This document shows positions 43,403 to 45,979 of a DNA stretch of 64,000 nt, piece after piece. The first letter of the stretch is position 1. The number at the start of each line of letters is the position of its first letter. The translations under genes were made by a program, and so were the position numbers. Source of the stretch: Brevundimonas lenta (GTDB lineage: Bacteria; Pseudomonadota; Alphaproteobacteria; Caulobacterales; Caulobacteraceae); the NCBI RefSeq assembly GCF_014196335.1, contig NZ_JACIDM010000001.1, positions 868,001 through 932,000 of the forward strand, written 5' to 3'. A model generated the notes under the pieces. It was not told the DNA's origin. It did not search any database and was given only the letters and a program-made list of their open reading frames with translations.

Positions 43403-44122
43403 TTACCGATCCCAGTCGCCGATCGCCGCCTGCCACAGGGTCAGGGCGGTCGTGGCGGCGGTGTCGGCGCGCAGGATCCGCGGGCCCAGGGACACGGAGG
43501 TGGCGAAGGGGAGGGACCGCAGACGCTCGCCTTCCTCGGGCGAGAATCCGCCCTCCGGCCCGATCAGGATGGCCCAGGACGACCCGCCCGCCGCCTGCAG
43601 CGCCGGGATCGCCGGCGCGCCGCCGGTCTCGTCGCAGAACATCAGCCGTCGCGACGCGTCCCAGCCGTCCAGGATCGCATCCAGCTTCCTCGGCGCATCG
43701 ACCAGCGGCACGTCCAGCCGCCCGGTCTGTTCGGCGCTTTCCTCGGCGATGGCGTCCAGCCGGTCGAGGCGCAGGTGCTGCGCCTGGGTCCGCTGCGTCG
43801 TCACAAGGCTGATCCGCGCCGCGCCCAGTTCGGTGGCTTTCTCGACCGCGAACTCCAGCGCAGATTTCTTCACCGTGGCGATCAGCAGATGCACGTCCGG
43901 TGGATTGATCTGCGCCCGCACCTGCGCCTCGGCGCGCAGGATCACGCCCTTCTTCAGCACCTCGGCGATCGTCGCCCGCCACTCCCCGTCGCGCCCGTTG
44001 AACACCAGCAGCTCGTCGCCCGCCTTCAGCCGCATCACCTGCGTCAGATAGCGCGACTGATCGAGCGTCGGCGCAGCCGCGGCGCCGGGGGACAGGTCGG
44101 TGGTGACGTGGAGGCGGATCAT
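43403..44122 (-). CDS. rsmE: 16S rRNA m3U1498 methyltransferase
   Basis: This 239-residue SPOUT methyltransferase methylates U1498 of 16S rRNA. Family signatures are QVMRLKAGDELLVFNGRDGE (PUA-like N-domain), KKSALEFAVEKATELGAARI and ILIGPEGGFSPEEG with LGPRILRADTA at the SAM knot. ATG 44122 is clear. It is transcribed with gshA. Confidence 0.97.
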   Translation of the reverse strand: MIRLHVTTDLSPGAAAAPTLDQSRYLTQVMRLKAGDELLVFNGRDGEWRATIAEVLKKGVILRAEAQVRAQINPPDVHLLIATVKKSALEFAVEKATELGAARISLVTTQRTQAQHLRLDRLDAIAEESAEQTGRLDVPLVDAPRKLDAILDGWDASRRLMFCDETGGAPAIPALQAAGGSSWAILIGPEGGFSPEEGERLRSLPFATSVSLGPRILRADTAATTALTLWQAAIGDWDR

Positions 44123-44153
44123 GGGCCTACGTCATAGCCTCCCCGTCGGCCTT

Positions 44154-44190
44154 GTCATCCCGGACGAGCGAAGCGAGATCCGGGACGGGA
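44154..44190. repeat. REP-like element, left of the GIY-YIG gene
   Basis: A 37-bp unit starting GTCATCCCGGACGAGCGAAG contains TCCCGGA and TCCGGGA as inverted arms. A near-identical copy in inverse orientation occurs at 44592-44628. Only two mismatches in the centre are visible. Confidence 0.85.
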
Positions 44191-44248
44191 TGGGCCACAA
44201 CCTTGACTGCTCCCGGACAACCCGTGAGGGTTGCGCCGGGAGGCGGTC

Positions 44249-44581
44249 ATGACCCAGCGCTTCTATGTCTATCTGCTCGCCAGCGGGCCGTGCGGCTGGC
44301 TGTATGTTGGCGTCACCAACGACCTCGTGCGGCGCGTCGCCGAGCACAAGGAAGGCCTGGTCCCAGGCTACACGGCCGAGCGAGGGATCGATCGCCTGGT
44401 CTGGTACGAAACCCACCGGTACATCGATCAGGCGATCCTGCGCGAAAAGCGGATCAAGCGCTGGCTGCGCGAATGGAAGTTCGCGCTGGTCGAGGAGAAT
44501 AATCCGCGTTGGGCCGATCTCTATGGAGAGTTACGAGCCACCCCTGGGCCCGGTTCGGCAAGCCGACCGGGCCAGGAGTGA
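44249..44581 (+). CDS. GIY-YIG nuclease family protein
   Basis: The 110-residue protein has YVY at 6-8 and YVG at 19-21, then VTNDLVRRVAEHKEG with the catalytic Arg and conserved Asn/Asp. It is a lone GIY-YIG domain with a short basic linker and no DNA-binding domain. ATG 44249 follows GGGAGG; the upstream in-frame ATG does not. It is flanked by inverted copies of a REP-like unit (44154-44190 and 44592-44628). Small GIY-YIG proteins are frequently associated with such repeats, and a role in repeat movement or processing is inferred only. Confidence 0.9.
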   Translation: MTQRFYVYLLASGPCGWLYVGVTNDLVRRVAEHKEGLVPGYTAERGIDRLVWYETHRYIDQAILREKRIKRWLREWKFALVEENNPRWADLYGELRATPGPGSASRPGQE

Positions 44582-44591
44582 TGGCTTGTCA

Positions 44592-44628
44592 GCCCGTCCC
44601 GGATCTCGCTGCGCTCGTCCGGGATGAC
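44592..44628. repeat. REP-like element, right of the GIY-YIG gene
   Basis: Inverse copy of the 37-bp unit at 44154-44190; it ends CTCGTCCGGGATGAC. It lies just after the GIY-YIG stop and 19 nt before the acyl-CoA dehydrogenase stop, so it may also mark transcript ends there. Confidence 0.85.
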
Positions 44629-44647
44629 AAGAGTGCAGTGCTAACCC

Positions 44648-45811
44648 CTACAGCGTCCGCGCGATCAAGAGCTTCATGATCTCGTTCGTACCGCCGTAGA
44701 TGCGCTGGACGCGGGCGTCCTTGTACAGCTGGGCGATCGGGTACTCGTTCATGTAGCCGTAGCCGCCGTGCAGTTGCAGCATCTCGTCGATGACCTCGCC
44801 CTGGATGTCGGTGACCCAGTATTTGGCCATCGAGGCGGTGGCGGCGTCCAGCTTGCCCTGCAGGTGCAGGCCCAGGCAGTGGTCGACGAAGACCTTGGCG
44901 ACGGTCAATTTCGTCTTCACCTCGGCCAGCTTGAACTGGGTGTTCTGGAAGTCGATCACCCGCTTGCCGAAGGCCTTGCGCTCCTTGACGTAGGCCAGCG
45001 TCTCCTTGAGCCCGCGCTCGGCCGCGGCCACGCCCTGAACGGCGATGTTCAGCCGCTCCTGCGGCAGCTGCTGCATCAGCTGGATGAAGCCCTGGCCTTC
45101 GCCGCCGCCGATGACGTTCTCCAGCGGGACCTTCACGTCGTTGAAGAACAGCTCGGAGGTGTCGTTCGCCTCCATGCCGATCTTGTGCAGGTTCCGGCCG
45201 CGCTCGAAGCCCTCGGCGCCGTCGGTCTCGACCACGATCAGGCTGGTGCCCTTGGCGCCTTCGGCCGGATCGGTCTTGGCCACCACGATGACGAAATTGG
45301 CCAGCTGGCCGTTGGTGATGAAGGTCTTGGAGCCGTTCACGACGTAGTGGTCGCCGCGCTTGATGGCGGTGGTTTTCACGCCCTGCAGGTCGCTGCCCGC
45401 CCCCGGTTCGGTCATAGCGATGGCGCCGACCAGTTCGCCGGACTGCAGGCGGGGCAGCCAACGCTGCTTCTGCTCCTCGGTGCCGTAATGCCAGATGTAC
45501 GGCATGACGATCGCGTTGTGCAGCGAGATGCCGAAATGGTCCGCGCCCTTCCAGCCCAGCTGGCGCATCAGCACCACCTCATGGCGGTAGTCGCCGCCCA
45601 TGCCGCCGTCGGCCTCGGGCATCGACAGGCCCAGCAGACCGGCGTCCCCGGCGTCGTTCCACAGCTGCCGCGGCACCGACGAGTCGGCGATCCACTGCTG
45701 GAACTTCTCCGGCGGCGCATGCTCGTCGATCCATTTGGCGACGCTGTCGGAGAAGAGGGTGATCTCTTCTTCCTGCATGAAGGCGGGTTCGGGGACGTTG
45801 AGGACGTTCAT
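44648..45811 (-). CDS. Acyl-CoA dehydrogenase (LCAD/isovaleryl type)
   Basis: The 387-residue flavoenzyme oxidises an acyl-CoA to the enoyl-CoA. FAD and substrate motifs are AMTEPGAGSDLQGVKTTA, GSKTFITNGQLANFVIV and KERKAFGKRVIDFQNTQF. The C-terminal IYGGTNEIMKLLIART has Gly where MCAD has the catalytic Glu. A Glu in LPQERLNIAVQG fits the base position of long-chain and isovaleryl-CoA enzymes. ATG 45811 starts MNVLNVPEP. A MerR-type regulator and a second dehydrogenase lie upstream. Confidence 0.95.
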   Translation of the reverse strand: MNVLNVPEPAFMQEEEITLFSDSVAKWIDEHAPPEKFQQWIADSSVPRQLWNDAGDAGLLGLSMPEADGGMGGDYRHEVVLMRQLGWKGADHFGISLHNAIVMPYIWHYGTEEQKQRWLPRLQSGELVGAIAMTEPGAGSDLQGVKTTAIKRGDHYVVNGSKTFITNGQLANFVIVVAKTDPAEGAKGTSLIVVETDGAEGFERGRNLHKIGMEANDTSELFFNDVKVPLENVIGGGEGQGFIQLMQQLPQERLNIAVQGVAAAERGLKETLAYVKERKAFGKRVIDFQNTQFKLAEVKTKLTVAKVFVDHCLGLHLQGKLDAATASMAKYWVTDIQGEVIDEMLQLHGGYGYMNEYPIAQLYKDARVQRIYGGTNEIMKLLIARTL

Positions 45812-45827
45812 CGGGGCTACTCGTCAT

Positions 45828-45874
45828 CTCCCTCCCCGTCCCGGGGAGGGTGGTCGCGAAGCGACCGGGTGGGG
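45828..45874. repeat. Left arm of a long inverted repeat between two acyl-CoA dehydrogenases
   Basis: This arm starts CTCCCTCCCCGTCCCGGGGA and ends with ACCGGGTGGGG. It pairs with the arm at 45918-45971. Within each arm CCCTCCCC and GGGGAGGG form a smaller hairpin, so it is also a REP-like unit. Confidence 0.85.
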
Positions 45875-45917: not shown

Positions 45918-45971
45918 CCCCACCCGGTCGTCGCTGACGCGCCGACCACCCTCCCCGGGACGGGGAGGGAG
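45918..45971. repeat. Right arm of the long inverted repeat
   Basis: The inverse of 45828-45874, with a few inserted bases in the middle (GTCGTCGCTGACGCGCC in place of a shorter segment). The outer 29 bases are identical. Arms are separated by 43 bases. Confidence 0.85.
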
Positions 45972-45979
45972 AACTCAGA

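Follow-up and report, generated by a model that had tools for sequence, protein, structure and literature searches.

The cassette in Brevundimonas lenta

The window analysed in this study is a 64,000-nucleotide stretch of the Brevundimonas lenta genome (3,360,201 bases, or 3.36 Mb, in 6 contigs). A cassette of 481 bp (44151..44631) was found in it, in which a lone GIY-YIG nuclease gene (44249..44581, + strand, 110 aa) is bracketed by two REP-like arms. The left arm (44151..44192, + strand) carries an outward-pointing TGTC tag, a TCCCGGA/TCCGGGA stem and a 14-nt loop in the centroid fold; the right arm (44590..44631, - strand) lies in inverse orientation and is complementary to it at 40/42 positions. 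The inverted-repeat search gave arms of 42 nt each with 95% complementarity, and bore out the 37-nt unit that the first-pass annotation had placed at 44154-44190 and, inverted with two mismatches, at 44592-44628; the core of that unit was correct, but its ends were a few bases short of the full 42-nt match. The open frame of the gene spans 44231-44581, with the ATG at 44249 and the stop codon at 44579-44581, and a PF01541 match confirmed the 110-residue lone GIY-YIG protein proposed to lie between the units. The flanking frames, 43403-44122 and 44648-45811, are both on the - strand, and we take them, by recognition, to be rsmE and an acyl-CoA dehydrogenase gene.

Two further hairpins are predicted inside the arms. 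The inner 5' hairpin (44210..44242, + strand; CTCCCGGA...CCGGGAG) stands immediately ahead of the start codon, and the inner 3' hairpin (about 44543..44576, + strand; CCTGGGCCCGG...CCGGGCCAGG) overlaps the end of the ORF. Folding energies were -18.7 kcal/mol for 44200-44250 (z -5.3) and -14.4 kcal/mol for 44540-44590 (z -2.9). As single-stranded DNA, the whole cassette folded at -162.6 compared with -100.4 for shuffled sequences (sd 4.4), which is expected because of its long inverted arms. The fold of single arms was unexceptional relative to shuffles (z about -1).

A scan of the 64-kb window for inverted pairs (arms of at least 24 nt, no more than 700 bp apart, at least 85% matched) found just the cassette arms and one other pair, of unrelated sequence. 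The other is a perfect 30-nt inverted pair (TCTCCCTCCCCGTCCCGGGGAGGGTGGTCG) at 45827-45856 / 45943-45972, between two acyl-CoA dehydrogenase-like genes; this is a different repeat, which lacks the CGTC tag. A lone REP of the CGTC-tagged kind (type 1, see below) occurs on the - strand at about 2577-2604, with one mismatch.

Allowing up to 3 mismatches, the 33-nt core of the arm occurred three times in the B. lenta genome, two of these copies being the window arms, and a reversed control pattern did not occur at all. The unit is rare in its own genome. The third copy (C1:1013558) belongs to a gene-less pair, the second unit of which starts about 160 bp further on. By reading, the two inner hairpins of this pair are similar in sequence to those of the cassette.

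The GIY-YIG protein

The GIY-YIG domain was the sole Pfam match of the window protein (PF01541, E=5.4e-12), and none of the NCBIfam models matched it at 0.001. Relatives of the protein were aligned after four of 170 had been left out (shorter than 80 aa once cut at the first stop). Among the 166 aligned proteins, conservation was close to complete for Y8 (165), Y19 (165), R29 (166), H33 (165), E66 (165) and N85 (163); the tyrosines of the GIY and YIG motifs, the Arg and the Glu are all present in the family, as for GIY-YIG nucleases. N85 (163/166) is at most a candidate counterpart of the UvrC-type Asn. Prokaryotic Slx1-like GIY-YIG proteins have no C-terminal Asn, according to the accessible text of PMC1564403.

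The predicted structure of the window protein had a mean pLDDT of 76 and a pTM of 0.65, with 37 sequences in the alignment. In Foldseek the best match of this model was the UPF0213 protein 1zg2 (E 4e-4), followed more weakly by Slx1 (E 0.03 and above), and UvrC was far weaker than both. The only PDB sequence relative at E <=0.1 was also 1zg2. Slx1 processes branched DNA, as the titles of the structural matches indicate, and the likeness of the model to it would fit a hairpin or cruciform substrate for the nuclease.

The records retrieved for the family are mostly named 'GIY-YIG nuclease family protein', 'hypothetical protein' or 'excinuclease ABC subunit C'. The gene family was present in at least 81/101 relative genomes and, across the class, in at least 76/192, with 0 to 11 copies per genome among the matches listed. 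No phage record matched the S. meliloti protein at 1e-12, and closely related phages were therefore of no help.

Bracketing of GIY-YIG genes by inverted repeats

Bracketing by a close inverted repeat was observed for 89/170 GIY-YIG genes and for 4/315 control ORFs (Fisher p=8e-44, a value that ignores phylogeny and treats as independent genes that are related). The 170 genes are non-identical relatives, mostly alphaproteobacterial, picked by similarity to the window protein; exact duplicates were dropped, as were hits that were shorter than 180 bp or lay closer than 250 bp to the end of a locus. The control ORFs (80-433 aa) were taken with a simple frame finder from the stretches holding the GIY-YIG genes, and the short ones among them (up to 200 aa) were bracketed in 4/167 cases. 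With a stricter rule (25 nt, 90%), 77/170 GIY-YIG genes were still bracketed. For the other 81/170 no inverted repeat was found under the bracketing rule, and loci L293 and L295 (Rhizobium and Sinorhizobium) had no clean bracket.

The individual sets of loci were also counted. In the first set, where a gene counted as bracketed if inverted arms of 20 nt or more, matched at 85% or better, lay no further than 250 bp away, 54/93 genes were bracketed, compared with 26/5269 equal-sized control windows in the 92 GIY-centred loci; these loci had been chosen mostly by E-value order from a longer match list, so that the sample leans to relatives of the window protein, and 2/95 hits, at locus ends, were left out. 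Bracketed genes numbered 12/23 in loci from a contig collection (1/24 left out), 20/50 across the class and 6/8 in a plasmid collection. The bracket was also present in two metagenome bins, one labelled Deltaproteobacteria (L141) and one labelled Xanthomonadaceae (L138), the latter being weak (19/22).

A detector built on the published shape of CGTC-tagged REPs placed a REP on both sides of 36/165 GIY-YIG genes and of 0/289 control ORFs, and on either side of 71/165 and 14/289, respectively. Flank clustering yielded 87 clusters, 43 of which hold a bracketed gene; as this clustering chained 78 genes into one cluster, the site count is a lower bound. The first-pass annotation had proposed a test for flanking above chance; the link between GIY-YIG genes and REP-like units is real and is broader than was first noted.

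Three GIY-YIG genes of the window family are present in the B. lenta genome. For each of the two besides that of the cassette, a REP-like inverted pair lies immediately upstream, and the other side has none (at L005 the pair was identified by reading the sequence). In another alphaproteobacterium (G204, L178-L185) there were 11 gene matches among the matches listed, and of ten genes that were read, two were bracketed.

Arm sequences and CGTC-tagged REPs

From one element to another, arm sequences mostly show no relationship. The arm type loosely tracks protein similarity (rho 0.22, computed on pairs without similar flanks; largest of 300 permutations 0.10). The match between arms was 0.63 within elements and 0.024 between them, a difference that is not independent evidence, since matching arms are part of the rule. 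Many of the relatives' arms consist of a tag, a palindrome and a tail (CGTCATCCTCGGGCTTGACCCGAGGATC, CGCTCATCCCCGCGCACGCGGGGACCCAG, GTCATACCGACGCAAGTCGGTATCCAG); the tag is TGTC in both window arms and CGTC, GCTC or TGTC in the relatives.

This arrangement is that of the CGTC-tagged REPs, which are described in the accessible part of PMC3733652 as having a terminal CGTC tag (TGTC or CCTC also being described), a stem of 8-9 bp starting with AT and a loop of 4-5 nt, with other loops in three organisms. According to the same portion of that source, they occur in multiple copies and mostly as inverted dimers, are concentrated in alphaproteobacteria, and are in part equated with dRS3 of Neisseria and RPE-4/RPE-6 of Rickettsia. 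They 'apparently lack a dedicated transposase', and their mode of movement was left open there in 2013 (PMC3733652, accessible part). A term count of PMC3733652 returned no occurrence of GIY-YIG.

By reading, many relatives' arms fit the published 8-9 bp stem starting with AT. The centroid folds of the window arms have stems of 7 and 8 bp, with the first A of the left arm unpaired, and their 14-nt loop is outside the published 4-5 nt. From its sequence, the window unit is best classed as a long-loop variant of the CGTC-tagged REP class. For what the first-pass annotation called REP-like units, CGTC-tagged REPs or variants of them is the better description, as judged against the accessible part of PMC3733652. 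Arms of the CGTC type flank GIY-YIG genes in records of S. meliloti, Shinella, Novosphingobium, Rhizobium and Neisseria gonorrhoeae, as well as in Azospirillum lipoferum, where the gene is located between sufB and sufC.

Gene-less pairs and repeat numbers

In the loci fetched from three pattern searches, 51/53 pairs of neighbouring REPs were inverted (+-). The spacing of gene-less pairs was 69-105 bp for REP type 1, 55-103 bp and in one case 217 bp for type 2, and 159, 168 and 205 bp for the window type, with 229 bp also among the places listed. For pairs holding a gene, it was 346 bp (type 2) and 448, 448 and 451 bp (window type). Subterminal bases, for example GAGTTGTCCGCC, were common to gene-less pairs and cassettes above the shuffled expectation. 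This sharing was weak on one side of type 1 (0.61, shuffled maximum 0.60), and two of the cassettes compared (L050 and L086) may include a neighbouring gene-less pair.

REP types 1 and 2 were each present in 56/61 genomes, with maxima of 76 and 96 copies in a single genome, respectively, and their reversed control patterns had no occurrence in the 61 genomes. Window-type REPs reached 45 copies per genome, with few in B. lenta. The number of GIY-YIG genes was correlated with the summed number of type 1 and type 2 REPs (Spearman 0.66 over 61 genomes, kinship ignored). The median REP number was 8.5 in the 8 genomes lacking a GIY-YIG gene and 31 in the other 53, although the range in genomes without the gene is 0 to 18 REPs of these types. 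Type-matched contrasts, for which the genomes with type-1- or type-2-armed genes were listed by hand, were weaker than the overall one and likewise ignore kinship (type 1: median 19 vs 9, p 0.04; type 2: median 29 vs 10, p 0.004).

For the window type, the median REP number (arms included) was 6.5 in the 14 genomes with a window-type GIY-YIG gene, defined as at least 65% identity among the matches listed, and 0 in the 47 others, 27 of which have no window-type REP (kinship ignored). The B. lenta genome contains 81 type-2 REPs, yet none of its three GIY-YIG genes has type-2 arms.

Comparison of insertion sites

The site between rsmE and the dehydrogenase gene was compared using loci from 30 of 58 matching genomes plus other loci, and both neighbours were readable in 23 distinct genomes. 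Ten of these 23 carry a GIY-YIG gene, five of them of the window type; in G015, G025, G001, G023 and G007 the gene is surrounded by other REP families. A comparison for empty sites had been proposed in the first-pass annotation; in two species (G010 and G044) the neighbouring genes are 19 bp apart with no insert. One genome (G017) has a REP pair enclosing a 3' remnant of a GIY-YIG gene, another (G032) has a REP pair without a gene, and nine have other DNA. In four of these nine (L098, L117, L119 and L123) the DNA appears by eye to be an antitoxin-toxin pair, which gives this intergenic position the look of a hot spot for insertions. The gene in the window is oriented against rsmE, while the other four window-type genes are oriented with it.

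At a second site, between genes presumed to be kbl and tdh, G052 has a REP pair, a gene and a further REP, while its sister G013 is contiguous, with flanks 93-94% identical. Between gltA and lpxB, where Sinorhizobium sp. K101 has palindromes only, a gene remnant and a cassette are present in S. meliloti: K101 shows a single palindrome, which in S. meliloti is split by the gene remnant and followed by the cassette. What is seen in K101 may just as well have arisen by deletion between short direct repeats that the two arms contain. At the gltA-lpxB site of L316 a palindrome is tagged at both ends; it may be an uninterrupted target, or else the footprint of an excision. Cassette-less species were thus seen at each of the three sites, but a base-precise empty site was obtained at none of them; the exact junctions could not be fixed because the short intergenic stretches are too diverged, or because the change may be a deletion.

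Two copies in G050 (L016 and L037) are 81% identical from arm to arm, and their 1200-bp flanks have no similarity on either strand. L014 and L037 represent one orthologous site in G037 and G050, at which the cassette has opposite orientations; identity of the flanks is 84-87% along roughly 1.15 kb on each side. Most other highly similar cassette pairs were orthologous insertions (flank comparison on one strand), and recent transposition is therefore rarely visible. Remnants consisting of a REP, the 3' end of a GIY-YIG gene and an inverted REP were seen in L290 (about 2648-2829) and in an intergenic region of L104. Deletion remnants are a possible route from a cassette to a gene-less pair.

No target-site duplication was detected in 40 elements with outward-pointing tags, where border matches were 2 nt or shorter, like those of shuffled pairs. 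These are the 40 of the 89 bracketed elements with a recognised outward tag (11 have inward tags and 38 are unclassed). An ordinary insertion sequence with target duplication was rejected on this ground.

Y1 transposases

A search for the Y1 (RAYT-type) transposase family, which was positive in 5/14 control genomes, found it in 2/61 genomes, B. lenta among them. RAYT was for this reason set aside as the mover of the repeats, and the bracketed gene itself encodes a GIY-YIG protein (PF01541). No inverted repeat was found around the Y1 gene of B. lenta (C2:804160). The Y1 gene of the other genome (G018, C64) has perfect inverted repeats of 26-27 nt near or within its frame; they are of another sequence, contain GTAG and are not CGTC-tagged.

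Discussion

The explanation favoured here, to which we assign a probability of about two in three, is that the 481-bp unit is an autonomous, REPtron-like mobile cassette in which a GIY-YIG nuclease replaces the HUH enzyme. A REP-like palindrome, the nuclease gene and an inverted REP would move as one unit, with an enzyme of the UPF0213/Slx1 fold in the role of the HUH transposase. The nuclease may recognise its own family of REP hairpins when these are extruded or single-stranded, and would nick or cut at them; repair or strand transfer could then copy the cassette into a new place, and a gene-less pair might be copied in trans likewise. Support at the level of sequence comes from the matched inverted arms, whose families vary from element to element and go loosely with the protein; from gene-less pairs with cassette ends, which appear REPIN-like and non-autonomous; and from differences in presence and orientation at shared sites, the retained active-site residues and the lack of a target-site duplication. 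These features suggest that the nuclease may be the missing partner in the spread of a large class of bacterial palindromic repeats. Whether this extends to a widespread prokaryotic transposable unit, in which a stand-alone GIY-YIG nuclease cuts REP hairpins in convergence with RAYT/REPIN, is a proposition to which we give even odds. The first-pass annotation had held that a repeat found genome-wide and flanking unrelated genes at the same rate, with no strain lacking the cassette, would speak against the nuclease processing or spreading the repeats; the unit is rare, control genes are seldom flanked, and cassette-less species exist at the rsmE site.

The most serious competitor, though an unlikely one, is a selfish gene of the homing type: the GIY-YIG gene would invade pre-existing REP pairs and copy only itself, the palindromes being safe landing sites and the REPs being spread by other machinery. 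The GIY-YIG fold is a classical one among homing endonucleases (PMC1564403, accessible part), and the single palindrome of K101 at gltA-lpxB, compared with the split one of S. meliloti, looks like an interrupted target, but a deletion between the short direct repeats in the arms explains the K101 state equally well. That one site (rsmE) holds different families in different species, and that the 81 type-2 REPs of B. lenta exist without a GIY-YIG gene with matching arms, would also suit such a gene. It is harder to reconcile with the number and type of REPs, which go with the number and type of GIY-YIG genes, with the subterminal bases common to gene-less pairs and cassettes, and with the scarcity of the Y1 family, the only transposase family surveyed (2/61 genomes). 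An enzyme in the service of the host, which would trim REP hairpins or cruciforms and mobilise nothing, its flanking REPs being regulatory or self-limiting targets, appears improbable: the nearest solved folds (UPF0213 and the structure-selective Slx1), the strongly conserved active site and the many insertions common to related species would be natural for it, whereas the patchy presence of the family (at least 81/101 relatives, at least 76/192 across the class), the 0 to 11 copies per genome among the matches listed, the gene remnants and the different cassettes at one site would not.

The opposite orientations of the gene at the rsmE site (the window and its four relatives) and in G037 and G050, between flanks 84-87% identical, could be read as an invertible cassette, the gene being flipped by recombination of one arm with the other so that the expression of a neighbour is switched. 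We consider this very improbable, as the unit contains no recombinase gene, and insertions made independently, or rare homologous recombination between the 40-nt arms, would likewise be expected to produce differences in orientation. Repeats are common in several genomes, and REPs and small genes might both simply gather in intergenic regions; such hitch-hiking or chance is scarcely credible when control ORFs were bracketed in 4/315 cases (4/167 for those of up to 200 aa) and control windows in 26/5269, and when arm type follows protein type, and it was set aside.

The mobile-cassette explanation places the unit close to the REPtron/RAYT systems, with which it shares one small gene set between tagged palindromes and, as in REPINs, palindromes of the gene's family scattered as gene-less inverted pairs. 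It differs from them in its enzyme, which is a GIY-YIG protein and not an HUH/Y1 transposase, and in its tag (CGTC/TGTC/GCTC, compared with GTAG). With the CGTC-tagged REPs it has in common the tag, the palindrome with a tail, the inverted dimers and the concentration in alphaproteobacteria, while the window arm has a longer loop and a predicted stem of 7-8 bp, and no transposase gene was reported in the accessible part of PMC3733652. The protein resembles the stand-alone Slx1-like/UPF0213 nucleases in fold, active-site residues and single-domain structure, these being its nearest solved structures; it differs in having, at its C terminus, a block (WxRxWKxxLIExxNPxWxDL) that includes a conserved Asn, and the family is often bracketed by REPs, at 0 to 11 copies per genome among the matches listed. 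GIY-YIG homing endonucleases belong to the same nuclease superfamily and have a similarly selfish-looking distribution, but the window protein has no Pfam domain besides GIY-YIG and the ends of the cassette are inverted palindromes. As with MITEs and their parent insertion sequences, short gene-less forms share their ends with gene-bearing forms; unlike those, the unit has no gene but that of a GIY-YIG nuclease, and 40 elements showed no target-site duplication.

A search of mostly open-access journal papers, judged by their titles, the opening lines of abstracts and term counts, found no literature linking GIY-YIG proteins with REPs, dRS3 or REPINs, and the accessible parts of PMC1564403, PMC8266576 and PMC9465073 report no such link. 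Within the literature so covered, a unit of REPs plus a nuclease of a different enzyme fold appears new, and is a variation on the known REPtron kind.

REPs are repeats widespread among bacteria, and those with a CGTC tag thereby gain a concrete and testable candidate for their mover, as the gene is bracketed far more often than controls. A role is also suggested for a family mostly annotated, in the records retrieved, as 'hypothetical protein' or under nuclease names. If the explanation is true, GIY-YIG would be added to the folds of enzymes behind transposon-like bacterial elements. Under the broader proposition of a widespread unit, the nuclease would also supply the transposase that CGTC REPs and dRS3 were said to lack, and so explain how the former came to be spread in alphaproteobacteria and the latter in Neisseria.
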